From a virus: a DNA stretch of 37,881 nt. Each line of letters begins with the position of its first letter. Position 1 is the stretch's first letter. The notes under the pieces were generated by a model. The model made no database searches. It was not told the DNA's origin and was given only the letters and a program-made list of their open reading frames with translations. The stretch is taken from positions 1-37,881 of IMG/VR virus record IMGVR_UViG_3300050821_012732; one strand, 5' to 3'. Both the position numbers and the translations under genes were made by a program. Below, piece after piece: positions 1 through 15,275 of this stretch.

Positions 1-98
1 AGATCCTTAGATGGAGAGGAAAAAGGTTAGGCTGGGGTGTGGTCGCACTTGTCAAGAATAAGAAGATCATAGCTCGATACCCGGGGTCCTTAACATGA
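1..98 (+). CDS. 3' end of an unidentified upstream gene (partial)
   Basis: From base 3 an open frame runs from the left edge to a TGA at 96-98, giving about 31 C-terminal residues rich in Lys, Arg, Gly and hydrophobics (ILRWRGKRLGWG at the start). The stop overlaps the ATG of the next gene as ATGA, the tight coupling used throughout this operon, which is the main reason to believe it is real. The fragment is too short to assign a family. The alternative is that it is chance open frame. Confidence 0.45.
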   Translation, partial: ILRWRGKRLGWGVVALVKNKKIIARYPGSLT

Positions 99-340
99 CC
101 ATCTTCGTGTCGAAAGCCTACCATGAGCTACTCACAGGCGAAAGGCTCTTCGCGCCTGCAAGATACCCAATGGGCGTCTGCAGCGGCGACATGATCTGGT
201 TAGCTGACGGCCAGTGTTACTACCACATGACGTGGCCAGTAACCATCAATAACGAGGAAGAGTTCCTAGAATTCATGCGGGGGCTGAAACCAAATGGCAC
301 AGAACCAGAACCAGAACCAGAACCAGACGTTAAGCCTTAG
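95..340 (+). CDS. small hypothetical protein with Glu-Pro repeat tail
   Basis: This 81-residue protein is not recognised. Its N-terminal two thirds look globular (aromatic residues, GDMIWLADGQCYYHMTWPV), and the C-terminus is an EP dipeptide repeat (EPEPEPEPEP) just before the stop. The ATG overlaps the stop of the partial upstream gene as ATGA. The last 47 bases overlap the helicase start in another frame, and the hexanucleotide repeat there codes EP in this frame and QN in the helicase frame. Position upstream of replication genes suggests an early function, but nothing in the sequence defines it. Confidence 0.6.
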   Translation: MTIFVSKAYHELLTGERLFAPARYPMGVCSGDMIWLADGQCYYHMTWPVTINNEEEFLEFMRGLKPNGTEPEPEPEPDVKP

Positions 341-1853
341 AGCGTTCCAGGAAACTGAACTCCAACGATTCGGTTCCGCCAAGAAGTTTGGCATCGTGTG
401 GGACATGGGTCTCGGCAAGACCCCAGCGGCTGCAAGCCTCATCGGTAAGAACAAACTTCGCCGTGTGCTCATCATCTGTCCAGACAACGCGTTTGCCGTG
501 TGGTCTAAGATGGCCCCCGAATGGATCAGATCCTTCCGTCCCGAGGTAAACGTGAAAGTTTCCTTCGTACAAGGAGAACCTTGGAATCGCGACCTAGACT
601 GGAACGATCAAGGGTTCGTTGCGGACAACGAGCTGAAGATCCTCATCTGTACGCCCGACGTCTTCATCCGAGACTGGGGTAAGAACATTAAGGTTAAGTC
701 CAAGAAGTTCACTAAGTTCTTCCCCCGCAAGCAACACTACATACCTGACATGGTGATCTTCGACGAAGCTAAGCGGATGCGGAATCCGGAGTCCACCGCT
801 TTCAAGCTCGTCTCGCGCTACCTCACGTACTACAACGTACAGTGGTTCCTTCCTCTCACAGGAACTCCTGGGCATGAGCCGAAGCATTTCTGGACGATGT
901 TGAACTGCATCAACCCGAAATTGTTCGGCTCATACTGGCAGTTCCTGTATAAGTACCATGAAGTCGAACAGGGTTACTTCGGTCTCGAGGTTGGGGAGCC
1001 CAAGAACCTCGAACAATGGCACCAAGTTCTAGGTGCTCACTTTAGCGTGGTCAAGGAGGACGATCCGGGAATCTCGGATCAAAGGCCACCGATCACACGA
1101 GTACTACTACCAATCGAAATGGATCCGGACCAGAAAGCGCTCTATGATGATCTGTACAAGGAAATGCTACATTACGTTGAGCAGGATGACTCGGTCATCA
1201 TCGCGCAGAACACACTTACTCTTGCGACGCGACTCAGACAGTCTCTAATATGTCCGGCTATACTCTCGCCCGCCTTGGGAATAGGAGCAGCAATCAAGGA
1301 CTTCGTTAAGACCGTTGAGCCGGGCGAGCACGTAGTCATCTTCACACCGTTTACGAGCGCGATACCGTTCTTTTATCGGTATCTAGAATCTAAGGGGTTT
1401 GCTCATGTATATACGCTTCAGGGAGGTATGGGTACACAGGAGCGCGAGGTACGCCTCGAGGAGTTCCGAAAGAATTATGGTGTCATCATATGCTCCACAC
1501 TCTATGCACAGGCGTTCAGCTTGGAACCTGCGACGAGGTCGTTCGCCATTGGTTATGACTGGGATCCGGACAACAACCGTCAAGCTGAAAAGAGGTTACA
1601 TCGTCTTACCACGCAAAATCCAATAACCTCGTACTACTACACGATGCGTTCCACCTTCGACGAGCGTCTCTGTGAGATCCTGAACATCAAGCAGGAACAC
1701 GTTAACATGACGATTCCTAGGAATCTCAGAGAACTCCTTCGTGAGTCCGACCCCAAAGAGGACCCCGACGAGATTCAACGTAACCTTGTGCAAGAACGCA
1801 TTAACAGCGGTTATTACGACAAGGGGAGGGACCCTGATGACAAGTATGGCTGA
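294..1853 (+). CDS. SNF2-type superfamily 2 helicase/ATPase
   Basis: 519 residues with the superfamily 2 motif set in order: Walker A DMGLGKT at about residues 37-43, motif II DEAK at 157-160, a motif III-like LTGTP near 190, and motif VI QAEKRLHR at 430-437, close to the SNF2 form QxxxRxHR. Such proteins are ATP-driven DNA translocases or helicases; phage versions sit in replication-recombination operons as here. The ATG at 294 has only a weak G-rich stretch upstream and begins with a QN repeat, so translation may depend on coupling to the overlapping upstream gene. No nuclease domain is fused. The family assignment is firm; the exact role (replication helicase or branch remodelling) is inference. 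Confidence 0.88.
   Translation: MAQNQNQNQNQTLSLRAFQETELQRFGSAKKFGIVWDMGLGKTPAAASLIGKNKLRRVLIICPDNAFAVWSKMAPEWIRSFRPEVNVKVSFVQGEPWNRDLDWNDQGFVADNELKILICTPDVFIRDWGKNIKVKSKKFTKFFPRKQHYIPDMVIFDEAKRMRNPESTAFKLVSRYLTYYNVQWFLPLTGTPGHEPKHFWTMLNCINPKLFGSYWQFLYKYHEVEQGYFGLEVGEPKNLEQWHQVLGAHFSVVKEDDPGISDQRPPITRVLLPIEMDPDQKALYDDLYKEMLHYVEQDDSVIIAQNTLTLATRLRQSLICPAILSPALGIGAAIKDFVKTVEPGEHVVIFTPFTSAIPFFYRYLESKGFAHVYTLQGGMGTQEREVRLEEFRKNYGVIICSTLYAQAFSLEPATRSFAIGYDWDPDNNRQAEKRLHRLTTQNPITSYYYTMRSTFDERLCEILNIKQEHVNMTIPRNLRELLRESDPKEDPDEIQRNLVQERINSGYYDKGRDPDDKYG
301..326 (+). repeat. AGAACC hexanucleotide tandem repeat in two overlapping genes
   Basis: Four perfect AGAACC copies plus a partial copy lie inside the overlap of the 95-340 gene and the helicase. 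The unit is a multiple of three, so copy-number change keeps both frames: the upstream protein gains or loses Glu-Pro and the helicase gains or loses Asn-Gln. Confidence 0.9.
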
Positions 1854-1919
1854 CCAAAAAATAAATGAGGACCTACCATAAGATTCCCTATTGATTGACC
1901 TCTGAAAAAAATGTATAAT
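1854..1919 (+). promoter_or_regulatory. sigma70-like promoter P1 with upstream A-rich element
   Basis: A -35 TTGATT (1891-1896), 17-bp spacer and -10 TATAAT (1914-1919) stand in the gap before the nuclease gene. The 12-mer CCAAAAAATAAA begins 60 bases upstream of the -10 (1854), and CTGAAA is in the spacer (1902-1907). The same elements recur at identical spacing at 11491-11556, which makes chance unlikely. P1 would drive the recombination, queuosine-type modification and polymerase operon. Confidence 0.8.
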
Positions 1920-1950
1920 ATGGGATAACAAACACACAAGGCTCATACAC

Positions 1951-3195
1951 GTGGCCGATTCAGATACCTATATACCAGTCGATTACGGGGAGGATCTAAG
2001 TCTTGAAGAACTCAGAGCGCCGGGGGCACAAGCACAAGCTCGCGAAGGTTCCACCGCAGTCATTAGGACAAGCGATCGAATCGGCTTTAAACGTTGTAGG
2101 CGTAGTTGGGGATGGGCGTCCCATCTTCGTCAAAATCTTGGGGCTAGAGATGCGAGTAATCCGCTCTGGACAGGCACAGGAATACACTTTGCACTTGAGG
2201 ATTTCCACGGATACAACGTCTACGGAGGAGCAGTTCACGCCTTCGAAGCGTACTGCGAAGCGGCAAAAAGGATTCAAGGTGCCCCAGCGGCGCTACCCGA
2301 GCTACGAGAACTCGGACGAGGAATGATGGAGTACTATACCGAGTACTGGCTCAAGGAACGCAATCCACTGAAGACGCTATGGGTCGATGGAGTACCGCAA
2401 GTCGAGGTGCGAGCCCTCCTAGAAGTGCCCTTCAAGCCTAGGGATTTCTACCCGGACTCTCCTTACGACAAGGTTCTGTACTCGGTGACGATTGATCGTG
2501 TCGTGGAGGACGAGGATGGGCAGCTATGGCTCGTGGATTATAAAACGGCTAAACAGTTTCAGGTCATGCACTTCTCGATTGATCCCCAAGTGGGGGCGTA
2601 CTACTGGGTGGGAAACCACATTTACCCCGGAAGGAAGATTGCTGGCTTTATCTACCAACAGCACCGTAAGGATCTGGCTCATCCCCCCAAGCTCACTGCA
2701 GCTGGCCGGATCTCAACTGATTCTAGGCAGCTCACAAGTCACGCCCTCTATCGCCAAGCAATCGTGTCCATCTACGGAAGCGACGCCAACAAGTGGCCCA
2801 CAGACAACCTAAGGCTCCTCAATGAGATAGCGGAACAAGAGACACCCGACTCGGATCGCTTCGTGCGAAGGGACAGAATCTACCGTAACGAGTACTCCTT
2901 TGAGAGCGAGGGGGCAAAGATCCTTATGGAACTCGAGGACATGCTTAACCCTCGTCTCCCACTGTATCCGAATCCTACGAGGGATTGTGCTAACATGTGC
3001 TCCTTCTTGCACGCGTGCCAGTCCATCGATGACGGCTCTGACTGGAAATACGAACTCAACCTCAGCCATCAACCAAAAGAGAAGGAACAAGACTCTTGGC
3101 GACAATTTCTCCCACAGCCAGACCTACTCACATCGGAGCGTCAGCGTCAGCGGGCGTTCCACCAGCTCCAGAACCCGCAAGTGGTCCAAAAATAG
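1951..3195 (+). CDS. Cas4/RecB-like PD-(D/E)XK nuclease with predicted 4Fe-4S cluster
   Basis: 414 residues starting at GTG, nine bases after AAGG. The nuclease core shows D182 followed by D196-Y-K198 (TIDR ... VDYKT), the DxK signature of the PD-(D/E)XK fold. One cysteine near the N-terminus (C49 in RCRRSW) and three near the C-terminus (C346, C350, C356) match the four-cysteine iron-sulphur arrangement of Cas4 and AddB-type nucleases. These enzymes resect DNA ends to make single strands for recombination. It is followed directly by a RecA-fold ATPase and a DUF669-like protein, a recurrent phage recombination module. There is no sign of CRISPR in the window, so a recombination role is preferred over a spacer-acquisition role. 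Confidence 0.85.
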   Translation: MADSDTYIPVDYGEDLSLEELRAPGAQAQAREGSTAVIRTSDRIGFKRCRRSWGWASHLRQNLGARDASNPLWTGTGIHFALEDFHGYNVYGGAVHAFEAYCEAAKRIQGAPAALPELRELGRGMMEYYTEYWLKERNPLKTLWVDGVPQVEVRALLEVPFKPRDFYPDSPYDKVLYSVTIDRVVEDEDGQLWLVDYKTAKQFQVMHFSIDPQVGAYYWVGNHIYPGRKIAGFIYQQHRKDLAHPPKLTAAGRISTDSRQLTSHALYRQAIVSIYGSDANKWPTDNLRLLNEIAEQETPDSDRFVRRDRIYRNEYSFESEGAKILMELEDMLNPRLPLYPNPTRDCANMCSFLHACQSIDDGSDWKYELNLSHQPKEKEQDSWRQFLPQPDLLTSERQRQRAFHQLQNPQVVQK

Positions 3196-4127
3196 CACCA
3201 CCCTCGGCGCCAACGACATCCGAGATCCCTGCGGCGCCCAAGCTGGAGATCCCTAGGGCTGTTACAGCTGCAGCCACTGCACCTCCGTTTCGCATGAGCC
3301 CCAGGAGATCCTTCTCCGACCGGTATTTGAAGATGCTCGTGTATGGGGCACATGGCCATGGAAAATCAACTCTGGCAGGGTCGTCCGTCGATGTCGAATC
3401 CATGCGTGACATTCTCGTCATTGATGCCGAGTCGGGGGACTTGGTGCTCGAGGACAACCTTCGAGTCATTCTTGGTGACGAGATCGAACACGTACGAGTT
3501 ACGAATTTCCTACAGGTTGCTCGCGTTCAGGAATTCCTTAAGTCTCATTGCATACGTCGAGAGGCTAACGACATAGAGGGCATGCGCAAAGTGGAAGCCA
3601 TGCTGAAAGGAGTGGAGCCCAACGACATTAAGCAACCCAAGCTGTTTCGAACGGTGATCATCGATTCCCTATCGGAGGTCGAAGCGTACTGCATGTATGG
3701 CCTCCTGAAGGTGGACGAGGGCACTATTCTCACAGGCTCCGCTGACGAGATTGACGTAGCTCGCTTCGACGAGTTCCGTAAAGCCAACATGATGATCCAG
3801 ACCCTGGTTAGAGCATTCAGGGATCTGCCGATGCACGTCATCTTCGTATGTGCCGATCAGTATACACAGGACGAGATGAAGCGGTTCCACTATGGACCTC
3901 GCATGACGGGGAAACTATCCACACAAATTCAGGGCTTCGTGGACATCGTAGGGTTCTTGCGTGCCGGTGCAGCGGAAGCTAGTGGGCAGGCCCCGCGACG
4001 CCTCTTCGTGCAGCCAATCGAGCGCTTCGATGCCAAATGTAGGCGAGCCAGTTTCCGAGAACCTTACTTCGACGACCCTACAATGCTGACGATTATGAAG
4101 GCCCTCAAGCTGGACAAGCTACCGTGA
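3096..4127 (+). CDS. RecA-fold recombination ATPase (Sak4-like)
   Basis: 343 residues from a TTG start with AAGGA nine bases upstream. Walker A GAHGHGKST is at residues 84-92 and a Walker B strand VIID ends at D190. Small RecA-fold ATPases of this type (Sak4/AAA_24 group) act as single-strand annealing or recombinase proteins in phages and usually neighbour a DUF669-like single-strand-binding protein, as here. The first 66 residues are rich in Pro and Ala and look disordered; they lie over the last 100 bases of the upstream nuclease gene in another frame. The ATG at 3294 (residue 67) is an alternative start but has no visible ribosome site. Confidence 0.82.
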   Translation: MATISPTARPTHIGASASAGVPPAPEPASGPKIAPPSAPTTSEIPAAPKLEIPRAVTAAATAPPFRMSPRRSFSDRYLKMLVYGAHGHGKSTLAGSSVDVESMRDILVIDAESGDLVLEDNLRVILGDEIEHVRVTNFLQVARVQEFLKSHCIRREANDIEGMRKVEAMLKGVEPNDIKQPKLFRTVIIDSLSEVEAYCMYGLLKVDEGTILTGSADEIDVARFDEFRKANMMIQTLVRAFRDLPMHVIFVCADQYTQDEMKRFHYGPRMTGKLSTQIQGFVDIVGFLRAGAAEASGQAPRRLFVQPIERFDAKCRRASFREPYFDDPTMLTIMKALKLDKLP

Positions 4128-4339
4128 GACCCGCCCCAACTCTGAACTCTAAGCTCCATTATCGGACCGCTATCACAATGCTCAGCGAAGATGCACTCTG
4201 GCTCAGAACAACCTATGCAGAAGGGTGGACTGGAAAGGTGCGTAGCATCATCCACGAGCACGTAAAGAACGCAAAGGAGCAACCGCAGCAACACCCACTT
4301 CGGCTGCAAAAGAATCATGGGCGCTTAAAGCAAGACTAA
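4124..4339 (+). CDS. small hypothetical protein
   Basis: 71 residues from GTG, whose GTGA overlaps the stop of the ATPase gene. Residues from about 19 onward (LSEDALWLRTTYAEGWTGKV) look helical and compact, and the C-terminus is rich in Gln, His and Lys. No family is recognised. The stop-start overlap and position in a packed operon support a real gene; an internal ATG at 4178 would give a shorter form. Confidence 0.5.
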   Translation: MRPAPTLNSKLHYRTAITMLSEDALWLRTTYAEGWTGKVRSIIHEHVKNAKEQPQQHPLRLQKNHGRLKQD

Positions 4340-4376
4340 GGCTGGCTCCCTGATCGGCATGCGAACGGTCGCCGCA

Positions 4377-4389
4377 TGTGTCTGACACA
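4377..4389. promoter_or_regulatory. 13-bp palindrome TGTGTCTGACACA, possible operator
   Basis: A perfect 6+1+6 inverted repeat lies 19 bases upstream of the DUF669-like gene, in the 68-base gap after the small protein gene. A few bases upstream, CATGCG and CGCATG form another short inverted pair. It could bind a dimeric regulator such as the HTH protein encoded at 4960, or form a weak RNA hairpin. No second copy was noticed. Confidence 0.35.
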
Positions 4390-4407
4390 GACCGAAGGAG
4401 AGATCAT

Positions 4408-4908
4408 ATGCCTGCAGAAAAGAAACCATACGAAGTCGACGACGACGCCTTCAACGCAGCCATCTTCGAGGATGGAGGCAACCTCGTCGTCGACCTGGGA
4501 GGGATCCAGGAAGCTAAGTTCGAGGTAATCCCCAAGGGTATCTACACTGGAGAGATCGACTCTTGCGAGTATGGCCTCTCGAATAACTCGAACGCACCGA
4601 TGTTCACGTTGCAACTCGTGATCACGGAAGGGCAGTACACAGGACGGAAGTTGTACACCTACATTTCCTTCTCGCAGAAAGCCTTACCCTTCTCCAAAGC
4701 GACCTTGAACCGTATCGCGCCAGAACTGCTGCAGAGCCCCTTCATTCCGCAAAAGATCGCGGACGAGGGGCTCCTCTTGGGACGACCCGTTCGTATGCGG
4801 GTCTCGATCGATGACTACCAGGGCGAGCCGCGCTCTCGTGTTGGGCAACTCATGGGCGCAGCTACTGGCGATCAGGTGAACAAGGCGGCGGGCGGGAAGT
4901 TCTTCTGA
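4408..4908 (+). CDS. DUF669-like single-stranded DNA-binding protein
   Basis: 166 residues; the ATG at 4408 follows AAGGAGAG at good spacing. The protein has an acidic N-terminus, a central beta-rich core (KFEVIPKGIYTGEI, followed by MFTLQLVI and RKLYTYISF) and a C-terminus ending in Gly-Gly-Lys-Phe-Phe. This layout fits the DUF669 family of phage proteins that bind single-stranded DNA beside Sak4-like ATPases. The terminal aromatic pair could serve as a partner-binding tip, as in other SSBs, but this is inference. An in-frame GTG at 4378 lies inside the palindrome and lacks a ribosome site. Confidence 0.7.
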   Translation: MPAEKKPYEVDDDAFNAAIFEDGGNLVVDLGGIQEAKFEVIPKGIYTGEIDSCEYGLSNNSNAPMFTLQLVITEGQYTGRKLYTYISFSQKALPFSKATLNRIAPELLQSPFIPQKIADEGLLLGRPVRMRVSIDDYQGEPRSRVGQLMGAATGDQVNKAAGGKFF

Positions 4909-4910
4909 AA

Positions 4911-4937
4911 CCGTAACTCGCCGTAACTTTAGTAACT
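4911..4937. promoter_or_regulatory. three direct GTAACT repeats at helical spacing
   Basis: CCGTAACT at 4911 and again at 4921, then GTAACT at 4932, place three equal hexamers about one helical turn apart just upstream of the HTH gene. Such phased repeats are typical of operator or iteron sites. The obvious candidate ligand is the adjacent HTH protein acting on its own gene; this is untested. Confidence 0.45.
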
Positions 4938-4959
4938 ACTCTATAAGCACGAGGACTTA

Positions 4960-5337
4960 ATGACCCAATCGCCTCTAGGACCGAAAGGTACACCGCTTGG
5001 ACAAGTGGTGCAGGGACCAGATCAACAGACAACTCTGGTCGAAGCTGCGAAGGAGCGCGGTTGGGTCACGCTTCGTCAGTTCACAGAGGTAGCAGACATT
5101 ACATACATGACCGCTCTTCGTTGGTGCAAGCTGGGCATGATCAACTACGTACAGGTTGGCGGTCAGCGACGCATCTACGAAGAGGAGCTTGCTAGATTCC
5201 TAGCGTACGGAACGCTGCCAGCGGATCCCAAAGCATTCGCCGAAGAGAAACAGCGCCGGCTGGTATACAAAGAGAATGCCGCCAACCGTAGGGCTTCGGA
5301 CTTCAAAGTCAAAGGTGGCAAGTACCCCACATCATAA
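4960..5337 (+). CDS. MerR/excisionase-like helix-turn-helix protein
   Basis: 125 residues, ATG preceded by GAGGA. Residues about 35-85 carry a winged HTH of the excisionase/MerR (HTH_17) kind: TLRQFTEVADITYMTALRW is the helix-turn-helix, followed by a wing with GGQRRIYEEELARFL. The N-terminus is a flexible Gly/Pro/Gln segment and the C-terminus is basic. No integrase was found, so a transcriptional or DNA-organising role is more likely than excision. The gene is 16 bases upstream of queC and directly downstream of phased GTAACT repeats, which suggests autoregulation and perhaps control of the modification genes. Confidence 0.75.
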   Translation: MTQSPLGPKGTPLGQVVQGPDQQTTLVEAAKERGWVTLRQFTEVADITYMTALRWCKLGMINYVQVGGQRRIYEEELARFLAYGTLPADPKAFAEEKQRRLVYKENAANRRASDFKVKGGKYPTS

Positions 5338-5353
5338 GCACAGGAGATCAAAC

Positions 5354-6160
5354 ATGACTCAGATCGAACGGAAAGCCTTTTGCCTACTGTCTGGAGGCAT
5401 CGACTCTACGACTTGCCTACACAAAGCCATCTTCGACTTCAGCGAGGATACCCACGAAGACACTGTGAAGCGAATCGACTTCAATCAGGATTGTTACATC
5501 GCTAGACACCCTAACGATCCTATTCCGTGGGTTGAGGCGATCTCGGTCAACTACGGCCAGCGCCACATCAAGGAAGCCGAATACGCTAGGATGACCTGTG
5601 AAATGCTCGGCATCAAGCACCACGTGCTTAACCTTAGCAACCTCCTAAAAGGAGGGAACACGATGCTCACGAACCCAGACATCGAGATCCCCAATGTCGA
5701 TTATGCGAACCTACCGCACGGCGTCAGTCCTACGTACGTACCATTTAGAAATGGTACGCTACTCTCCGTCATTACAGCGTACGCACAAAAGTGGATCAAT
5801 GCGTCTCCCGACACCCGACAAGCTGGTGTCTACTTTGGAGCGCATTCTGAGGACGCAGCAAATTGGGCTTATCCTGACTGTACACCCGAATTCATCGGAT
5901 CTATGGCGAATGCCATACACGTTGGCACCTACTTCAAGGTGCGCTTGTATACTCCGCTACAGTGGCTCGTTAAGCACGAAATTATTACGCTGGGGGAATC
6001 TCTCGGAGTCAACTGGTATAGCACTTGGTCGTGCTACGCGGGAAACGAGATCCATTGTGGAACCTGCCCAACTTGCAGATCGCGTAGGCAAGGCTTCATC
6101 GCGGCGGACGTCCCAGACCCGACCGTGTACGCAAACCCCCTCGAGCTCCTGAGGGCTTAG
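5354..6160 (+). CDS. queC: QueC, 7-cyano-7-deazaguanine (preQ0) synthase
   Basis: 268 residues from the ATG at 5354, which follows AGGAG. QueC uses ATP and ammonia to turn 7-carboxy-7-deazaguanine into preQ0. The PP-loop SGGIDS is at residues 13-18, NYGQRH and VPFRNGT follow, and the zinc site is C227, C235, C238, C241. All expected motifs are present, so the enzyme should be active. Compared with E. coli QueC there are about 25 extra residues between the PP-loop and YGQRH (acidic, with a DFNQDCYIARH stretch). It is first of the queC-queD-queE cluster that ends in a DpdA-like gene, so its product is expected to be used for DNA rather than tRNA. Confidence 0.95.
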   Translation: MTQIERKAFCLLSGGIDSTTCLHKAIFDFSEDTHEDTVKRIDFNQDCYIARHPNDPIPWVEAISVNYGQRHIKEAEYARMTCEMLGIKHHVLNLSNLLKGGNTMLTNPDIEIPNVDYANLPHGVSPTYVPFRNGTLLSVITAYAQKWINASPDTRQAGVYFGAHSEDAANWAYPDCTPEFIGSMANAIHVGTYFKVRLYTPLQWLVKHEIITLGESLGVNWYSTWSCYAGNEIHCGTCPTCRSRRQGFIAADVPDPTVYANPLELLRA

Positions 6161-6277
6161 CAGAACCACATGGAACCAGACTCACCAGTCGTACGCAACG
6201 ACCCTCGCCTATGCATAGGTCCTAACGCACCCAAAAGAGGGTACCTCACGATCCACGAGGAGGAATCGAGGAAGCCA

Positions 6278-6739
6278 ATGACTAAGGTTTGTGCGGAGCG
6301 CTATCACGACATCTCGTGCGGCCACAGAGTTGTAGGGCACGAGGGGAAGTGTCAACATTTGCATGGCCACAACTATCGCATCACCTTCTCATGCGAGTCG
6401 GAGAGCGGTACCGACGACATCGGACGAGTAATCGATTTCGGCGTTATCAAGAGCACTCTGTGCGAATGGCTCGAGAAGAAGTGGGACCACAAGATGCTGC
6501 TGTGGGCCGAGGATCCCCTCATCGCGGGCGTCAAATACATCGACCCACTAGGAGTCGTTGCTATCCCGTTCAATCCGACTGCAGAGAATCTTGGGATCTA
6601 TCTACTCCACCTTGGGCCGAACATCCTCGGACCCGAGAACGAGCACATCCGACTCGTTAAGGTGAAGGTCGAAGAGACTCGTAAATGCTCTGCAGTCGTA
6701 GAGATAGTGCCGATAATGCCAAAGCCGGAGACCCCATGA
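6278..6739 (+). CDS. queD: QueD, 6-carboxy-tetrahydropterin synthase
   Basis: 153 residues. QueD converts dihydroneopterin triphosphate, the FolE product, to 6-carboxy-5,6,7,8-tetrahydropterin. Zinc ligands H16, H29 and H31 and catalytic C25 sit in CGHRVVGH ... CQHLHGHNY; PTAENL and VKVEET are the usual later motifs. The ATG at 6278 has GAGGA just upstream; an in-frame ATG at 6170 would add 36 residues but lacks a ribosome site and homologous sequence. The 117 bases between queC and this start hold no other convincing gene. The stop overlaps the queE start as ATGA. Confidence 0.93.
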   Translation: MTKVCAERYHDISCGHRVVGHEGKCQHLHGHNYRITFSCESESGTDDIGRVIDFGVIKSTLCEWLEKKWDHKMLLWAEDPLIAGVKYIDPLGVVAIPFNPTAENLGIYLLHLGPNILGPENEHIRLVKVKVEETRKCSAVVEIVPIMPKPETP

Positions 6740-7533
6740 CTAAGGACATAGTACTCAAGAAGATCCCGCTCGTGGAGCTCTTTGGTCCAACGGTGCAAGG
6801 CGAGGGCGCGGTCATCGGGGCGCCCACCTATTTTCTGCGGTTCGGATTGTGTGACTACGACTGCAAGCTGTGTGACTCTCGGCACGCAGTTGAGCCAGAG
6901 CAAGTTAGAGCCAACGCAGAATGGATTACGCAGACTGTGATCCACAACCAACTGGTAACGTATCGTTCGATTAACCATCCTACGTCCTGCAGGACTGTAA
7001 CCTTCTCAGGGGGGAATCCTTGCATCCACGATCTCTCAGTGCTCGTACACACGCTGAAAGACTCCGGCTGGAAGATCCATGTTGAGACACAGGGAACGTT
7101 TCACCCAGACTGGCTATTCGAATGCGACTCGGTTACATGCTCCCCGAAAGCGCCTGGTATCGGGGAGAAGTTTGACCCTAAGGCCTTCGAAGAGTTCATG
7201 GCAGCATTCGATGGCTCGATGAACTATGAAGGGCTAAGTCTGAAGATCGTCGTGTTCGACCTACCCGACCTCGAGTTCGCAGGCAACTTAGCCTTCTGGT
7301 GTGCGAACCATAACTTCCCTCTGGAGCAGTTTTACCTTTCTCAAGGCAATCCTTATCCTCCAGGCATCGCAACATACAGGCAAGACGACGGAAGTCCCAA
7401 CACGATACGAAACCTCCTCGTGACCCAATACCTCGCGCTATTCGATCAGATCCAAAAGAGCCCTCTACTATCGAGCGTCAAGTTCCTGCCCCAGCTACAC
7501 GTATGGCTGCACGGGAACAAACAAGGAGTATGA
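6736..7533 (+). CDS. queE: QueE, 7-carboxy-7-deazaguanine synthase (radical SAM)
   Basis: 265 residues; ATG overlaps the queD stop. QueE is a radical S-adenosylmethionine enzyme that contracts the pterin ring of the QueD product to 7-carboxy-7-deazaguanine. The 4Fe-4S ligands are C39, C43 and C46 (CDYDCKLC). The substrate loop VQGEG at 20-24, SGGNPC and VETQGT are the other family motifs. At 265 residues it is slightly longer than many bacterial QueE proteins. The set of motifs is complete, so activity is expected. Confidence 0.95.
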   Translation: MTKDIVLKKIPLVELFGPTVQGEGAVIGAPTYFLRFGLCDYDCKLCDSRHAVEPEQVRANAEWITQTVIHNQLVTYRSINHPTSCRTVTFSGGNPCIHDLSVLVHTLKDSGWKIHVETQGTFHPDWLFECDSVTCSPKAPGIGEKFDPKAFEEFMAAFDGSMNYEGLSLKIVVFDLPDLEFAGNLAFWCANHNFPLEQFYLSQGNPYPPGIATYRQDDGSPNTIRNLLVTQYLALFDQIQKSPLLSSVKFLPQLHVWLHGNKQGV

Positions 7534-7538
7534 GAGTC

Positions 7539-7745
7539 ATGGCTAAAAAGAGCAAGCAAGCCAAAAGGAAAGAGGCGCTCGACGAGATCAAAGATGCGGC
7601 TGACGCTATCACCGACTTGTGCGACGACGAAGAAGTCGACGCCGACCAGTTCGCAGGTCCGCTCACTGAACTACGGCAAGCCATAGCGGCGCTAGCGGAA
7701 CTTGAGGGCGACGACGACAGCGATGACGAGGAAGAGGAGGAGTGA
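7539..7745 (+). CDS. small charge-segregated protein between queE and dpdA
   Basis: 68 residues from ATG 7539 with AAGGAG ten bases upstream; an ATG at 7530 that overlaps the queE stop is possible but its ribosome site is too close. The first 20 residues are strongly basic (KKSKQAKRK), the middle is helical, and the last 14 are almost all Asp and Glu. The stop overlaps the dpdA start as TGATG. No family is recognised. Co-translation with queE and dpdA suggests a partner in the modification pathway or an acidic DNA-mimic-like protein, but only the context supports this. Confidence 0.7.
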   Translation: MAKKSKQAKRKEALDEIKDAADAITDLCDDEEVDADQFAGPLTELRQAIAALAELEGDDDSDDEEEEE

Positions 7746-8509
7746 TGGCACAGTTCTGCATCGTAGCACCTCACCAACTGTGTGAAGGCCTCAAGAAGGA
7801 CAACCTCCTGGGGACTGCACATCTTCTGCTCGCGCACGACGTCGTCAAGTACGCCACCGCGTACCATAATCTCTTCCATACCGATAACATGTGGTCAGCC
7901 CATAGGCTCATCATCCTCGACAACTCGGTAGTAGAGACTGGCAACGCCGTCGATCTAGGAATGATCAAAGAGGCTATGAGTATCGTGGCGCCTACGTGTA
8001 TAGTGTTACCTGACGTTTACGAGAAAGTTCACGAGACGATCATCTCCTGTGATAATGCCTACGATAGCTGGAGCGCCTTGTGCGTTAAGACCGAAACGAC
8101 CCTAATGATGTGTCCTCAAGGGCGTACTCTTGCAGACTTCGTCTACTGCGCAGAGAGGTTTAAGAGATACGAGGCTTTTCCTTTCATACAGTGGTGGGGA
8201 GTACCTCGCAATCTTGTCAAGAACGTCGGTAGCAGACGCGATGCAATTAAGATACTGCACGCTATCAACTCGGAGCGATCCATTCACCTCTTGGGGTTTT
8301 CGGACAACATGATCGACGACGTCCTCTGCGCGAGACTGCCCGAGGTAGCAAGTATCGACTCCGCGGTGCCTCTGCGTGTGGATAACTTTAGCATCAACGG
8401 GAGCTTTCGTCCTCGCAATCCAAACTGGTTCGAGACAGCTGAGTACGACTACGCTAGGCTCTCGACTAACCTCGACTACGTTAGAAGGCTCGTCACCACA
8501 GAAAAGTAA
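7745..8509 (+). CDS. dpdA: DpdA-like DNA 7-deazaguanine transglycosylase
   Basis: 254 residues; ATG after GAGGAGGAG, overlapping the previous stop. DpdA proteins are relatives of tRNA-guanine transglycosylase that exchange guanine in DNA for preQ0. Recognisable blocks are ILDNS at 57-61 (a conserved Asp region), VLPD ending at D90, LLGFSD at 182-187 and the ASIDSAVP block near 202-209. The protein is much shorter than bacterial Tgt (about 370-380) and lacks Tgt's zinc cysteine cluster. Its place directly after queC-D-E is the classical phage arrangement. Assignment rests on these motifs and context; which DpdA subgroup it belongs to cannot be told here. Confidence 0.85.
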   Translation: MAQFCIVAPHQLCEGLKKDNLLGTAHLLLAHDVVKYATAYHNLFHTDNMWSAHRLIILDNSVVETGNAVDLGMIKEAMSIVAPTCIVLPDVYEKVHETIISCDNAYDSWSALCVKTETTLMMCPQGRTLADFVYCAERFKRYEAFPFIQWWGVPRNLVKNVGSRRDAIKILHAINSERSIHLLGFSDNMIDDVLCARLPEVASIDSAVPLRVDNFSINGSFRPRNPNWFETAEYDYARLSTNLDYVRRLVTTEK

Positions 8510-8520
8510 AGAGGAACGTC

Positions 8521-8739
8521 ATGCTAAAGAAACAAGTTCACGACTTCGAAGGGCTCTTCCTAGGAATCTCAGCCTCCGGGAAGGCTATTAAGGTCGAGCT
8601 GAGTTCGGGCCCGAAGGACGGCGAGGAGATCTGGTTCCCTCTGTCGTTGATCGAATATACCCCTATGACTGCGGACGTTGGGGACAAGGTAGAAGTCACC
8701 GTACCTGAGTGGTGGGCGAAGCAAGAAGAGATCCTGTGA
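8521..8739 (+). CDS. small beta-rich hypothetical protein
   Basis: 72 residues with GAGGA before the ATG. The sequence alternates short strands (AIKVELSS, EIWFPLSLI, KVEVTVPEW) and ends with WWAKQEEIL, suggesting a small beta-barrel of the kind common in phage early regions. No function can be assigned. The stop overlaps the GTG start of the polymerase (GTGA), so its translation is probably coupled to that gene. Confidence 0.65.
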   Translation: MLKKQVHDFEGLFLGISASGKAIKVELSSGPKDGEEIWFPLSLIEYTPMTADVGDKVEVTVPEWWAKQEEIL

Positions 8740-11240
8740 ACGATCAATCTCCGATCACAACACTTGTTCGCTGTAAGGACTGCCCTCATGGCTTCGCGAG
8801 GATGGTCGGAAGTCGTGGGAACCAAACGAGCCCTCTAGTCATCGTCGGGGAGAGCCCCGGTAAGCAAGAGGTTAGAGCGGGCTTGCCATTCGTGGGGCCA
8901 AGCGGGAAAGTTCTTGAGCACGCGCTTGCTCAGCATCCGGAAGTGAACCCTCTCTTCCTGAACGCCATCCAATGCTATCCAGGGTCGGTGCAAAACAAGA
9001 ATGCTGACAAGATAGCTGCCGCAACCAGATGTTGCCAGAAGAGGCTCTACAATGAGATCGGTACACATCAAAGACAAGTTATACTTGCACTCGGTAACCC
9101 AGCAGTCCATTCCACTACCGGGGAATTCGGAGCGAAGATTACTCAAGTTCGGGGTAAGCGCTTCGACAGTCCCCTCGCCAGATTCGGCATCGTCGCAGCC
9201 GTCCATCCTGCCTTTCTCCTTCGAGGTGGAGGATCAATGCGGCAGTTCATGGCGGATATCGATTACGCCATGCGACTCGCCATCCATGGAGAAAGTGCTC
9301 TCAAGCGCTATACCCTCCCTAGCGTTAGGGTTATCAGAACTGCATCGGAGCTCCGACAACTTGTCGGTAGCATCAGCAAGGCAAAGTATTGCGCTGCAGA
9401 CATTGAAACGGGTGGTTACGACGGCTTCGATCACCTCCGGGATCGCATTCTTAGCGTTGCTTATTGCTGGGAGCCAAACCGTGTATTTATTGTACCAGAG
9501 CATCTCGTGCCACTAACTCGGTACATTTATACCGAAGCCCCCAACACGCGCTTCATATGGCACAACGGTAAATTCGACCAAAAGTTCCACGTAGCGCAAG
9601 GGATCCGGGCACGCGTCGACGAAGACACAATGCTCTTGAGTTACGCCATCGACGAAACTAAAGGGATCCATGACTTGGAGCAGCTAACGTCCGATATCCT
9701 GGGCGCTCCTGATTGGAAGTTCATGATCAAACCCTACCTCAAGGGGAAGGACAAGACCTATGCAGACATTCCCCCCGCAGTCCTCTACGACTACCAAGCA
9801 AGAGATACCTCTTCAACCTTACAGATCTTCCCCTTCCTGCGCAACCTAGTCAACTTGGATTCCAAGCTGGAGACTCTATACACTCGCACGCTACTTCCGA
9901 TGTCCGATTACCTACGGCGGATTGAGATGGTCGGAATCGAACCCGATCTTCCGCAGGTCGAGAAGAACCGAGTGAAGAAGACTAAGGAGGCCGACGATCT
10001 GGAAAGACGGTTCAATGAGCAAGCGATCGCAGCAGGCTACGGAGTTCTTAACCCAAGATCTCCGCAGCAGGTATCTCACTTCCTCTACGATGTACTCAAG
10101 CTTCGAGATCCTCGAAGACCTAACAGGAGACCTGTCTCTACCGATGAAGAGACCCTACTTACCCTCCAGAAGCATCCGGCCGTTGAAATACTGCTGCAGT
10201 ACCGGGGAGTTCATAAGGGACTGTCTACTTACGTTAACTCGGTCCAAGAACACATTGGAGCCGATGGACGTGTACATACCACTTACCTTATACACGGAAC
10301 TACTACGGGGCGTCTTGCCTCGCGAGATCCCAATCTCCTCAATATCCCGAGAGATCCGGAACTACGTGGCCAATTCAAGGCCAAGCAAGTCATCCTAGAA
10401 CTCCCCAACAAAGGCGGAACCGTCTGCATCCGGTATATGTTCATGGAGATTGACGTTAACCAAGCGGAGCTCAGGGTACTAGGGGAACTCGCAAAGGACC
10501 CAATACTGTTCCAGATCTACACGGACCCCCACTCCCCCTCGATCCACGAAGTTACTCGCGGAGAAATGTATGGCGACCCCAACTCGTACACCTCGGCTGA
10601 CTGGGAACATCACTATGCAAAGTTTTCAGTCGATAGCCACCCGCGGGTCCTCGAAGAGCAAAAGATGCAAGCGAAGAACGTTAACTTCGGAATCGTGTAC
10701 GGGAGAACAGCTCCAACGTTCGCTGAGGAATTCGGAGTTAGTCCTAAAGAAGCTCAGCAATGGCTTGATGCTTGGTTCAATAAGTACTCAGGAGCTCGTA
10801 CATTCCTTAACAGATGTCGCCAGGCTCCTCTCAAAGGTGAGAACCTATGTACGCCATTTGGACGCAAGAGACGCTTCCAAGTAGTAAACCAGGAGAAGCT
10901 CAAAGACATCCAGAATCAAGCGTCGAACTTCCCTATGCAAAGCATCGCCTCGGATTGCGTTACGCACACAGGCATGCGAGTGCAGGAGCGAGCAGCTCTA
11001 GAGTTCGATGCAAACATCGTGAACACCGTGTACGACTCCATCCTGTTCGAACTTCCGAACTCAATTCCCCAAGCCCTAAAATTGGGGGCATATGTTCTAA
11101 AAACACTTAGGGCTGTACCTCGCGAGTGGGGGCTCACGACAATCCCCTTCTCCGGCGACATCAAGTTAGGATCAGATTGGGGTCACCTGGAGAAGGTTCC
11201 TTTACCGCGACATCTCAAGAAGGACATCGACAATGCCTAA
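8736..11240 (+). CDS. Family A DNA polymerase with N-terminal family-4-like uracil-DNA glycosylase domain
   Basis: 834 residues from GTG. Residues 1-190 are a uracil-DNA glycosylase of the family 4 type: GESPG at 38-42, PFVGPSG, VHPAFLLR, and cysteines C13, C16, C80 and C99 or C100 for a 4Fe-4S cluster. A DEDDy 3'-5' exonuclease follows: D222/E224, N277/D281, Y353/D357. The polymerase domain has motif A with D573, motif B K643..K647..F651..Y655, and motif C V-Y766-D767-S768. There is no 5' nuclease domain. Compared with E. coli Pol I, R754 is Lys and the HDE of motif C is YDS; both metal-binding Asp residues are kept, so it should be an active replicative polymerase. F651 predicts discrimination against dideoxynucleotides. 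Confidence 0.93.
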   Translation: MNDQSPITTLVRCKDCPHGFARMVGSRGNQTSPLVIVGESPGKQEVRAGLPFVGPSGKVLEHALAQHPEVNPLFLNAIQCYPGSVQNKNADKIAAATRCCQKRLYNEIGTHQRQVILALGNPAVHSTTGEFGAKITQVRGKRFDSPLARFGIVAAVHPAFLLRGGGSMRQFMADIDYAMRLAIHGESALKRYTLPSVRVIRTASELRQLVGSISKAKYCAADIETGGYDGFDHLRDRILSVAYCWEPNRVFIVPEHLVPLTRYIYTEAPNTRFIWHNGKFDQKFHVAQGIRARVDEDTMLLSYAIDETKGIHDLEQLTSDILGAPDWKFMIKPYLKGKDKTYADIPPAVLYDYQARDTSSTLQIFPFLRNLVNLDSKLETLYTRTLLPMSDYLRRIEMVGIEPDLPQVEKNRVKKTKEADDLERRFNEQAIAAGYGVLNPRSPQQVSHFLYDVLKLRDPRRPNRRPVSTDEETLLTLQKHPAVEILLQYRGVHKGLSTYVNSVQEHIGADGRVHTTYLIHGTTTGRLASRDPNLLNIPRDPELRGQFKAKQVILELPNKGGTVCIRYMFMEIDVNQAELRVLGELAKDPILFQIYTDPHSPSIHEVTRGEMYGDPNSYTSADWEHHYAKFSVDSHPRVLEEQKMQAKNVNFGIVYGRTAPTFAEEFGVSPKEAQQWLDAWFNKYSGARTFLNRCRQAPLKGENLCTPFGRKRRFQVVNQEKLKDIQNQASNFPMQSIASDCVTHTGMRVQERAALEFDANIVNTVYDSILFELPNSIPQALKLGAYVLKTLRAVPREWGLTTIPFSGDIKLGSDWGHLEKVPLPRHLKKDIDNA

Positions 11241-11508
11241 GGATACCGAAGTGATCGCGAGCATCACAAGCCCTGAGACACTTGCCACCTACGAGCTTAC
11301 CATGCAGCTTCGTTGGCACAATGGTAGGCTGGAACAACTCGTCAAAGTAACCGTACGTGATGCGCGTACGCTTGGGCCCATGAATCAGCACCACCAATGG
11401 AAAGTGGTACCCACCGACGACAGAGACACCTCCCAGCAATTCTACAACGCAGCCGATGCATACGATCTAGATGATGACCCCCACCACCGCCCAAAAAATA
11501 AACCTTGA
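11233..11508 (+). CDS. hypothetical protein with acidic/His tail
   Basis: 91 residues; AAGGA lies upstream of the ATG, which overlaps the polymerase stop by 8 bases. The N-terminal 60 residues look like a small beta fold (YELTMQLRWHNGRLEQLVKV); the C-terminus is polar, with DDD and HH runs. It is the last gene before the second promoter. No family is recognised. Confidence 0.6.
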   Translation: MPKDTEVIASITSPETLATYELTMQLRWHNGRLEQLVKVTVRDARTLGPMNQHHQWKVVPTDDRDTSQQFYNAADAYDLDDDPHHRPKNKP

Positions 11509-11556
11509 CCGACTATCATTTTGACTCTTGCTAAAACCCTGAAACTGCTATATAAT
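11491..11556 (+). promoter_or_regulatory. sigma70-like promoter P2, same architecture as P1
   Basis: CCAAAAAATAAA at 11491-11502, -35 TTGCTA at 11528-11533, CTGAAA at 11539-11544 and -10 TATAAT at 11551-11556. Every element is at exactly the offset seen in the promoter at 1854-1919, with a 17-bp spacer. The A-rich 12-mer would lie near -70, just beyond a normal UP element, and also codes the last residues of the upstream gene. P2 would transcribe the ribonucleotide reductase-folE operon. Confidence 0.8.
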
Positions 11557-11594
11557 AAAAACAATAGAATACTATACCTAGCGAGGTCAACGCA

Positions 11595-11867
11595 ATGCAG
11601 TCGACGGGCGAATATCTAGAAGAGCTCACGAGGGAGTATTGGTTCTTATCGAACGCTTGGGAGGGAAGAATCAATCACTGCCTCACGACTTCTGGCGCGA
11701 TTCGTTTCGGCACGAGTATCGAGGAGAGCTTGGGCCCACAGCGTGCACTACGACCCAAGATCCACAAGCTGCTTGACGACATCGTCATCCGCGGGGGTAG
11801 GAACAAATATAGCTCTCCGTCGCTAGCGGACATCATCAAGTTCCCTCTCCCGTTCCCTAAGGTGTAG
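11595..11867 (+). CDS. hypothetical protein upstream of nrdJ
   Basis: 90 residues, GAGG before the ATG. The start of the protein (STGEYLEELTREYWFLSNAW) is helical and the remainder has an RIRFG-like and KIHKLLDDIVIRGG segment. It is the first gene after promoter P2 and ends one base before nrdJ, so co-translation is likely. It is not a known reductase subunit or regulator that I can recognise. Confidence 0.65.
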   Translation: MQSTGEYLEELTREYWFLSNAWEGRINHCLTTSGAIRFGTSIEESLGPQRALRPKIHKLLDDIVIRGGRNKYSSPSLADIIKFPLPFPKV

Positions 11868-11868
11868 T

Positions 11869-14250
11869 ATGACGTTGAAGAGAGATTCTCGACATTCCTC
11901 GTTCGCGAAACGCATCGCGGCCGTTCACGCTCAGATCCCTGAGCAACAGATCTGTCTAGAGATCTGGCGTGACAAGTATAGGCAGCAGAACGAGGCGGGG
12001 TTCCCGGATACTTTCGAGCGTGTCACAGAAGCAATCTACTCTAAGGATCCCAATAAGGAAGCAGCCCAACTCGCTTACGATGCGATGGTCAGTGGTTTGT
12101 GGATGCCAGGAGGCCGTATCATAGCAGGAGCGGGAACCGAGAAGCGTGTCACTCTAATGAACTGTTATGTGAACAGGAAGCTAGAAGATGATCTCGTTTC
12201 TATTATGGAGGGGCTCTCCGTTGCGGCTCGCACGCAACAACAAGGTGGTGGTATTGGTACTGATTTCTCCACGCTTCGGCCTGAAGGGGCGATCCTTTAC
12301 CGTACGGGTTCCGAGGCGTCCGGCCCTCTTCCTTTTATGGATATGTGGGATTCGATGTGCTCAACCATACGTAGTGCTGGGGATCGCCGTGGTGCTATGA
12401 TGGCGACCATTAACGACACACATCCAGATCTGCCTAAGTTCATCAAGGCGAAGCAAGTCAAGGGAAGGCTCACAAACTTTAACGTGAGCGTACTCGTCTC
12501 GGACGCCCTAATGTCCGCGATCGCAGAGGACGAGGAGTGGTTCCTACACTTCCCGATTCCACCACGACATCGTCAGGCGTCTCTAGAGGAGTATGACTTC
12601 GAGGACAACGACGGCGTACAGCAATACGTGTACTCGGTACAACAAGCCCGAGATCTGTGGGAGCTCATCACCAGAAATTCCTATGACTGGAGCGAACCGG
12701 GAATCATCTTTATCGACCGCATCAACGAGCTTAACAACCTGCACTACTGCGAGGAGATCAACTGTACCAACCCTTGTGGAGAGCAGCCGTTGCCTCCGAA
12801 TGGTACTTGCAACCTAGGAGCGATCAACCTAGCTCGTATGGTACAGTATCCGTTCAAGCCAAATGCCACCCTCGATATGCAGTTGCTCCGCGAAGTGACT
12901 GATATCGGCATGCGATTCCTAGACAACGTCATCGATGTCACACAGTATCCGATGCCTGATCAAGACGAGGAACAAACGCGAAAGAGGCGTACTGGACTAG
13001 GAGTCTCAGGCCTCGCCGATGCATTGGCCCAGCTTGGCATCAGGTATGGCGGTGCACAGGCTGTACAAGTAACCGAACGGATTATGCAACAGATCTGCTA
13101 TACGGCCTACGAGACGAGTTGCACCCTCGCGGAGGAACGTGGAGCATTCCCGGCATTCGACCCCACAGCATACCTTCTACCAGATACTTTCGCTGCCCAG
13201 CGATTACCTCCCGAGCTTCGAGAGCGTATCGCCACCACCGGAATCCGCAACTCTGTGCTCCTCACTATAGCTCCTACAGGCACCACCTCGATTCTGTTTG
13301 GTAACATCTCGTCAGGCATCGAACCGACCTTCGCTCACCACATCACGCGCAAGGTTCGTCAGGGCAACGATACCTTCAAGGAGCACGAAGTCACGAGCTA
13401 CATCTATCAGCTCTGGTGGGAGACTCGGCCTGCAACCATTACGCGTCAAGACGACCTCGAGATGCCAGCGGGTATGGTAACGACGAAAGAGCTCACGATT
13501 CGTGATCACATCCTGATGCAAGCAGCCGCTCAGCGTTGGGTGGATGCCTCGGTCTCCAAAACTATTAACGTCTCGGAATCCACAACGTACGAGGCTTTCC
13601 GAGAAGTGTACGAGCTGGCCTACGCTACAGGATGTAAAGGTTGTACTACCTACAGACCATCGGACGTCAGAGGATCCATCCTCACCGACTCGGAGGACTC
13701 TGCCCCCTTAACGCCTAGGGTACGCGATGACATTCTGGAAGGGATTACACATAAGATCAAGTGGCCAAGCTGGTCGAGTGCTCTCTACGTCACTGTCAAT
13801 CGTTCCTCAGACGGCTCGCCATTCGAAGTGTTCTTCAACAGCAAGGACGCTAGACATCAAGAGTGGATGACTGCAGTGTCGATCCTCATCACTAGCTTCC
13901 TTCGGAGGGGTGGCCAGGAAGTAGGCTTCCTCGGGAGAGAGCTCGAAGGCATACACTCTATCCAGGATACTGCTTGGATTAAGTTACCCGGCGTTGAGAA
14001 GCCAAGGTTTTTTGGGAGCCTCATAGGTTACATTGGACACATCCTTGCAGAGGATCTCATGAGGGTACAAGGAAAGACCTTAAACGGAAACGGTGTTGGG
14101 ACTGGTACGGGAGTGAATGGTAACGGTGGTGGTGACGGAGGCAAGCCAATCACAACTCCTCTAGAGCGTTGCCCCCAGTGTCTAGCGTTGGCCCTCGAGC
14201 ATAAGGAAGGCTGCAAGATCTGCATCAACTGCGACTACTCCACTTGCTAG
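11869..14250 (+). CDS. nrdJ: Class II adenosylcobalamin-dependent ribonucleotide reductase
   Basis: 793 residues, a full-length NrdJ. It reduces ribonucleotides to deoxyribonucleotides using a coenzyme B12-derived radical. The active site N301-x-C303-x-E305 lies in NPCGEQPL; redox cysteines are C99 and C314. Between about 610 and 710 is a TSCPD-type domain (LYVTVNRSSDGSPFEVF), then a Gly/Asn linker, and a terminal zinc-ribbon-like tail with CPQC and four more cysteines up to C793 that would regenerate the active-site disulphide. No small radical-generating subunit is needed or seen. Function depends on host B12. It supplies dNTPs for phage replication with the neighbouring MazG-like enzyme. 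Confidence 0.95.
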   Translation: MTLKRDSRHSSFAKRIAAVHAQIPEQQICLEIWRDKYRQQNEAGFPDTFERVTEAIYSKDPNKEAAQLAYDAMVSGLWMPGGRIIAGAGTEKRVTLMNCYVNRKLEDDLVSIMEGLSVAARTQQQGGGIGTDFSTLRPEGAILYRTGSEASGPLPFMDMWDSMCSTIRSAGDRRGAMMATINDTHPDLPKFIKAKQVKGRLTNFNVSVLVSDALMSAIAEDEEWFLHFPIPPRHRQASLEEYDFEDNDGVQQYVYSVQQARDLWELITRNSYDWSEPGIIFIDRINELNNLHYCEEINCTNPCGEQPLPPNGTCNLGAINLARMVQYPFKPNATLDMQLLREVTDIGMRFLDNVIDVTQYPMPDQDEEQTRKRRTGLGVSGLADALAQLGIRYGGAQAVQVTERIMQQICYTAYETSCTLAEERGAFPAFDPTAYLLPDTFAAQRLPPELRERIATTGIRNSVLLTIAPTGTTSILFGNISSGIEPTFAHHITRKVRQGNDTFKEHEVTSYIYQLWWETRPATITRQDDLEMPAGMVTTKELTIRDHILMQAAAQRWVDASVSKTINVSESTTYEAFREVYELAYATGCKGCTTYRPSDVRGSILTDSEDSAPLTPRVRDDILEGITHKIKWPSWSSALYVTVNRSSDGSPFEVFFNSKDARHQEWMTAVSILITSFLRRGGQEVGFLGRELEGIHSIQDTAWIKLPGVEKPRFFGSLIGYIGHILAEDLMRVQGKTLNGNGVGTGTGVNGNGGGDGGKPITTPLERCPQCLALALEHKEGCKICINCDYSTC

Positions 14251-14301
14251 TCCGAGGCAAACGTCGTTGGCGCTTACAACGCACGACGATCTGGATCGGG
14301 C

Positions 14302-14310
14302 TTATCCACA
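14302..14310 (+). promoter_or_regulatory. exact DnaA-box match TTATCCACA
   Basis: A perfect match to the bacterial DnaA box lies in the 122-base stretch between nrdJ and the next probable start. A single nine-base match in 38 kb is only mildly unexpected, and no second box or AT-rich unwinding region was noticed, so this is a weak candidate for replication or regulatory use. Confidence 0.2.
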
Positions 14311-14372
14311 AAAGCATGCTGGTCACTCTGCTCGAAGCCTACCCAAGCCATAAGAAGGAGAAGCAACCTCTA

Positions 14373-14561
14373 ATGTTCCACATACCTCACAACATGGAGA
14401 CACGCGACTGTTGCATTATGTACTTCTGCGAAGCTAGTGCTACGACACCAGTCTGTGTACGCTTCTTCAAGCGTAACATGCTCTTGTTGGCAACCGACAT
14501 ACTACAGATTAATCTTAACCTAAGCCTCACGTGGGGCGAAGATAACCTAATCGACCTCTAG
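14373..14561 (+). CDS. small hypothetical protein
   Basis: 62 residues from ATG 14373, with AAGGAG about 12 bases upstream. It contains four cysteines (DCCIMYFC, then PVC) and a hydrophobic centre. The same frame is open back to a TTG at 14244 inside the nrdJ end, but without a ribosome site. Nothing identifies a function. Moderate doubt remains that it is expressed. Confidence 0.4.
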   Translation: MFHIPHNMETRDCCIMYFCEASATTPVCVRFFKRNMLLLATDILQINLNLSLTWGEDNLIDL

Positions 14562-14584
14562 CACAAGGGAAGGAACTACCACCC

Positions 14585-14917: not shown

Positions 14918-14929
14918 AAGGGGCACATA

Positions 14930-15271: not shown

Positions 15272-15275
15272 CATC

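Follow-up and report, generated by a model that had tools for sequence, protein, structure and literature searches.

Genes for a preQ0 pathway and a predicted small DNA-guanine transglycosylase of the CP220 type in a virus genome fragment

DNA that contains 7-deazaguanine bases shields phages from restriction. In the virus record IMGVR_UViG_3300050821_012732 of IMG/VR (37,881 bases, hereafter the window), we examined five plus-strand genes predicted to make such a base, most likely preQ0, and to insert it into DNA. Four of them lie close together, namely, queC (5354 to 6160, ATG at 5354, 268 residues), queD for 6-carboxytetrahydropterin synthase (6278 to 6739, ATG at 6278), queE for the radical-SAM enzyme 7-carboxy-7-deazaguanine (CDG) synthase (6736 to 7533, ATG at 6736, its start overlapping the end of queD by 4 bases), and a gene for a 254-residue protein, called dpdA here (7745 to 8509, ATG at 7745). 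An 80-residue open reading frame (ORF) with an acidic C terminus and no library match (7503 to 7745; 68 residues if the start is at 7539) stands between queE and dpdA, and its stop is overlapped by the dpdA start. The remaining gene, folE, encodes GTP cyclohydrolase I, the first step of the pathway, at 15276 to 15920 (ATG at 15276). The starts of all five genes are refined ones. All genes from 95 to 15920 are codirectional, the plus strand has replication and nucleotide genes there, and the minus strand carries tail genes. PHROGs named a helicase, an exonuclease, Sak4, SSB, a family A DNA polymerase, ribonucleotide reductase (RNR), MazG, and tail and head-tail genes in the window but assigned none of its genes to a terminase, a portal protein, or a major capsid protein. 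The record is classed as linear, i.e., it is likely a fragment, and since long related records span about 50 to 75 kb, about half of the phage genome is probably missing from the window.

The four biosynthesis proteins matched their families in Pfam, PHROG, and NCBIfam with E values from 1e-23 to 1e-77: QueC (PF06508, 3e-51; PHROG 1550, 5e-50), QueD (PF01242, 1e-23; PHROG 2389 [QueD], 1e-44), QueE (TIGR03365, 3.5e-56; PHROG 2076, 2.5e-37), and FolE (PF01227, 4e-56; NF006824, 4e-77). Each was aligned with its counterparts from E. coli, CAjan, StAshley, and BSP7, and active-site motifs were retained in all four, so that the calls of the first-pass annotation, a note made from the sequence alone, stand. 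QueC, 35% identical to E. coli QueC, contains SGGIDS, YGQRHxxE, VPFRN, YPDC, and CY..HCGTCPTC. The canonical QueC signature is SGGxDS, YxQxHxxE, VPxRN, YPDC, and the zinc motif C(x)8CxxCxxC (PMC13329287), and the window protein is complete for the first four of these motifs. Its zinc site has the four cysteines with a first spacing of 7 instead of the canonical 8, as in StAshley and BSP7, and QueC of CAjan, a phage with proven 2′-deoxy-preQ0 (dPreQ0), also deviates from a spacing of 8. A fused Gat-QueC was ruled out, as the 268-residue protein has no second domain and GATase_6 is absent from the window. QueD shows CQHLHGH (CxxLHGH), DH, and EET in alignment with E. coli QueD and is 53% identical to CAjan QueD. 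QueE has the radical-SAM cluster motif CxxxCxxC in the form CDYDCKLC, and FolE, 46% identical to E. coli FolE, retains CEHH and the distal cysteine. As a separate observation, the window queD shares about 70% DNA identity over about 200 bases with a Pseudomonas Nipunavirus-type queD, and its product shares only some 30% identity with the QueD proteins of the loci closest to the window by DpdA (L004 to L009); judging from these identities, queD has likely been exchanged independently of its cluster.

The 254-residue product of dpdA had no significant match in Pfam, PHROG, or NCBIfam. Homologues were found by tblastn in the Brevundimonas phages StAshley and MaInes (34% identity), Weizmannia phage Youna2, and Bacillus phages, where their annotations are noncommittal or unrelated (“hypothetical protein” in StAshley and MaInes). 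In the three records that we opened (StAshley, Youna2, and BSP7), the homologue sits among queuosine genes directly before the DNA polymerase gene. Searching viral contigs with the single window protein gave no match, and an alignment query was required; the window, StAshley, Youna2, and BSP7 proteins, once aligned, retrieved 80 viral loci. The family profile and motif set were then based on 56 viral homologous proteins. Invariant across these 56 are D59-N60-S61, E64, G126 (of a QG pair), R164, H181, G184, and D205, giving the pattern DNSxxE, QG, R, HxxG, and DS, the order of which parallels the motifs TDSGGFQ, FDEC, QG, YLMG, and FDCVMPTR of E. coli tRNA-guanine transglycosylase (TGT). By this motif order, D59 (DNS) and D205 (DS) would be the counterparts of the two catalytic aspartates of TGT. 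No cysteine is invariant in the 56 proteins.

Profile and structure comparisons pointed to the same identity. The best PDB match of the 56-member profile was 7ui4, the bacterial DNA-guanine transglycosylase DpdA (E value of 0.0058), while PHROG and Pfam searches with all 56 members returned unnamed families or marginal matches, including one weak “queuine tRNA-ribosyltransferase.” The AlphaFold (AF2) model of the window protein had a pLDDT of 94 and a pTM of 0.91. With VIA, all 50 top rows for this model were TGT, with Z scores of about 16 (best, 16.3 over 234 of 254 residues at 3.9 Å). With Foldseek, TGT ranked first and 7ui4 was also listed (9e-4); against a viral library, a protein of phage phiST came first (3.5e-12) and nt-1 DpdA2 fifth (5e-6). 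The gene at 7745 to 8509, named DpdA-like in the first-pass annotation, is thus confirmed by profile, structure, and context as encoding a TGT-fold, DpdA-type protein, which would act as a DNA-guanine transglycosylase.

We then compared this protein with the known DpdA types. The family profile scored 84 bits against a protein of phage immuto annotated as DNA guanine transglycosylase, 70 against phiST, 66 against CP220, and 65 against Chryseobacterium phage MA9V-3, compared to a maximum of 3.8 bits among 1,600 shuffled decoy sequences. Profile-profile alignment (hhalign) against these four proteins gave an E value of 2.8e-28 over 239 columns. CAjan DpdA1 and E. coli TGT scored within noise, and hhalign against CAjan DpdA1, the sole DpdA1 representative, gave an E value of 0.39 over 5 columns. 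nt-1 DpdA2 reached 10.9 bits and an hhalign E value of 0.023 over 67 columns, far weaker than CP220, phiST, and immuto. We rejected an assignment to DpdA1 (the 9g/CAjan type) because the CAjan score, from one representative, is not above noise; on profile evidence, the window DpdA is placed in the CP220/phiST/immuto type and not in the CAjan/9g type. This set probably corresponds to DpdA3 of Cui et al. 2023, reportedly described there as permitting complete guanine replacement. In CP220 and CPt10, 100% of deoxyguanosine (dG) is replaced by the deoxynucleoside of 7-amido-7-deazaguanine (ADG), dADG (PMC8306585). Because the window DpdA is of the CP220/phiST/immuto type and CP220 has all of its dG replaced, dense or near-complete replacement of G would be plausible in the window phage, and the DpdA type, overlooked by the first-pass annotation, alters the extent of modification to be expected.

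The gene order queC-queD-queE-dpdA-polA was found in almost every one of 83 related loci, far above chance, so the coupled cluster that had been noted earlier is a conserved one. In a broad lineage of mostly uncultivated phages, DpdA is likely the enzyme that inserts the base into DNA. The 80-residue ORF before dpdA had no tblastn homologue in the 83 loci; neither it nor the 72-residue ORF on the other side of dpdA (8521 to 8739, no library match) had detectable homologues there. StAshley has a 60-residue ORF in the slot matching 7503 to 7745, and CAjan has a 75-residue ORF adjoining dpdA on the polymerase side, comparable to the 72-residue ORF of the window. In several relatives, a gene of 150 to 190 residues stands shortly before dpdA (phiST, BSP7, Youna2, and MA9V-3), and immuto has a hydrolase near its dpdA (loci L002, L003, L089, L090, and L094 for this set of relatives). 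The gene is possibly linked to nucleotide supply, and the window has none at this position.

In the window, folE stands about 6.8 kb behind dpdA, after the DNA polymerase and RNR genes. The first-pass annotation proposed that the pathway is split across two operons, with folE in the second as a possible regulatory device that tunes flux over the infection cycle. Promoter-like sites (10 versus 11.3 in shuffles) and terminator-like sites (11 versus 15.1) are not above chance in this codirectional region, which does not bear out two operons. Among 78 records with a placeable folE, it lies behind the polymerase in 14 (the window and 13 relatives), and in most records it is part of the cluster and precedes dpdA. 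A single set of 15 rows (98%) on the tree contains all 14 split-type FolE proteins, with two changes, and the complete genome of Brevundimonas phage StAshley has the same split order. The position of folE is thus an inherited gene order, and since in-cluster folE is commoner and the split is inherited, special timing is unnecessary and a regulatory role of the split is highly unlikely.

Searches for enzymes that would convert preQ0 further covered the window and 30 related records, including the complete StAshley, Youna2, and BSP7 genomes. For QueF, the only matches were folE genes: of nine PF14489 matches, eight came from relatives and one was at 15618 to 15758 of the window, and we discarded all of them since they coincide with folE in every record concerned and FolE and QueF are T-fold relatives. 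The GATase_6 and TGT families were absent from the same records; no search with the ArcS family itself was made. Neither the window nor 14 related records had a formyltransferase family match, and no converting-enzyme product is named in the StAshley annotation from 1 to 65000, most of that genome. The window encodes no preQ0 transporter, and a weak transporter family match in one relative was discarded because it lies within a 2,763-residue ORF. The earlier statement that no QueF or amidotransferase is encoded therefore holds for the window, and for the 30 relatives, but does not extend to the whole genome because the record is a fragment.

Taken together, these data make it very probable that a 7-deazaguanine base is synthesized from GTP by this phage and inserted into its own DNA, with preQ0 as the most likely final base. 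FolE would convert GTP to dihydroneopterin triphosphate, QueD would form 6-carboxytetrahydropterin, QueE would produce CDG, and QueC would yield preQ0 via ADG. After replication, DpdA, as a small TIM-barrel transglycosylase, would cut the guanine-deoxyribose bond in DNA and insert the deazaguanine, most likely giving dPreQ0, with ADG second as the final base; the benefit would likely be protection against restriction enzymes of the host. Judging by families, motifs, and fold, the window encodes the whole route from GTP to preQ0 together with a DNA transglycosylase, as first proposed. The further claim that the base is preQ0 itself stands as the leading prediction, with no converting enzyme seen, but was overstated, since QueC also makes ADG and the genome is incomplete. 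dPreQ0 leads because neither the window nor the 30 relatives yielded a QueF, an amidotransferase, or a TGT and by analogy with CAjan and Rosebush. In these phages, which have dpdA and the preQ0 genes but lack an amidotransferase, dPreQ0 amounts to about 30% of G, and deletion of dpdA abolishes it (PMC6884629).

Several points weigh against this interpretation. Sequence-level kinship to TGT is weak, with no match of the Pfam TGT family to the window DpdA, and generic TIM barrels rank close after TGT in Foldseek. QueC makes ADG before preQ0, so preQ0 is the best of several outcomes, and the nearest relatives with measured DNA, CP220 and CPt10, contain dADG and not dPreQ0; at a similarity to CP220 of about 20%, substrate preference is not transferable. 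Lastly, a converting enzyme could be encoded in the part missing from this fragmentary record.

It is possible, though rather unlikely, that the same pathway leaves ADG (or CDG) in the DNA, either from the QueC reaction or through an unrecognized enzyme, as in CP220 and CPt10. QueC forms ADG en route to preQ0 (PMC13329287), profile comparison relates the window DpdA to the enzyme of CP220, in which dG is wholly dADG (PMC8306585), and in phiST the DpdA gene is accompanied by QueD and FolE genes with no QueC annotated nearby, which suggests that preQ0 is not the sole substrate of transglycosylases of this type. However, the window QueC retains the preQ0 synthase signature in its four canonical motifs, and dPreQ0 is present in phages whose gene set is the same except that their DpdA is DpdA1 (PMC6884629). 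It is improbable that an enzyme encoded in the unsequenced remainder of the genome converts the base further, to preQ1, archaeosine, or some other derivative: the record is a fragment, and near the DpdA of immuto there are a formyltransferase gene and a second, cyclohydrolase-like gene that is annotated as QueF, but neither the 50- to 75-kb records of close relatives nor the three complete genomes gave a QueF, GATase_6, or formyltransferase match, and StAshley has no such annotated product from 1 to 65000. Supply of the queuosine precursor pool for host tRNA instead of phage DNA, as Hutinet et al. proposed for phages with preQ0 genes and no recognized DpdA (PMC6884629), is very improbable here, given a DpdA-type gene that is linked to the cluster, has been retained alongside it in almost all relatives, and is not close to TGT, in a window encoding no QueF, TGT, or preQ0 transporter.

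A preQ0-modified genome would join systems that are already known. The nearest class is group 2 of Hutinet 2019, in which DpdA, FolE, QueD, QueE, and QueC are encoded without an amidotransferase and dPreQ0 is expected, although the window DpdA type is outside the two subfamilies of that paper (PMC6884629). In CAjan, the pathway genes likewise adjoin DNA polymerase and recombination genes, but its 306-residue DpdA of the DpdA1 type is not detected by the window family profile, and CAjan has a preQ0 transporter, unlike the window. The CP220, phiST, and immuto transglycosylases resemble the window DpdA in length (about 255 to 265 residues), in a whole-length profile match (E value of 3e-28), and in the motifs DN(S), QG, H.LG, and DS/DT; they differ in an identity of about 20%, in their phage groups and neighbor genes, and in the dADG of CP220 DNA. 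Bacterial DpdA (7ui4) and TGT share the TIM-barrel fold and the catalytic motif order but are much longer, and the window family lacks invariant cysteines. The gene order of StAshley matches that of the window, down to the position of folE after the polymerase and RNR genes, and its DpdA is 34% identical, whereas its RNR is class I (alpha and beta) and an extra deoxynucleoside monophosphate kinase and a phosphoribosyltransferase are encoded near folE. The DpdA of MaInes is also 34% identical. Bacillus phages BSP7 and BSTP and Weizmannia phage Youna2 have queC, queD, queE, folE, and a homologous DpdA before the DNA polymerase, with folE within the cluster and a DpdA merely 23 to 24% identical.

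What is new here is the identification of this DpdA as a small CP220-type enzyme and of the broad, mostly uncultivated lineage carrying it. A likely DNA-inserting transglycosylase passes as a “hypothetical protein” even in cultured phages, two of which, StAshley and MaInes, are identified as relatives of the window phage. More tentatively, this large lineage might pair a complete preQ0 pathway with a small transglycosylase of the CP220 type, lack any converting enzyme, and so replace all or nearly all of its G by the cyano base preQ0, compared to about one-third in the known preQ0 phages. If replacement is near complete, the Campylobacter phages with full dADG substitution would have a counterpart that uses preQ0.

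Between dpdA and folE, the window encodes a family A DNA polymerase (8709 to 11240; PF00476, 7e-61) with a 3′-5′ exonuclease domain (PF01612, 8e-10), both preceded by an N-terminal uracil-DNA glycosylase-like domain (PF03167, 2e-17) with GESPG and HPAFLLR motifs and cysteines; the polymerases of relatives align over the same N-terminal part. In the close relative L004 (G001:C1:21437-24676, minus strand), the polymerase frame of 1,094 residues consists of two matching parts around about 800 extra in-frame bases, which look like an intein. The RNR large subunit (11869 to 14250; PF02867, 1e-121) is a single 793-residue chain with a TSCPD domain (PF12637, 2e-7) and no beta subunit nearby, and is likely of the B12-dependent type. 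A MazG-like nucleotide pyrophosphohydrolase gene (14930 to 15271; PF03819, 2e-10; PHROG 229, 8e-34) lies directly before folE. In the tail region, the proteins encoded at 20620 to 23625 and 33684 to 34808 have long runs of “EAA(T/S)A.D.P/S” repeats in common.

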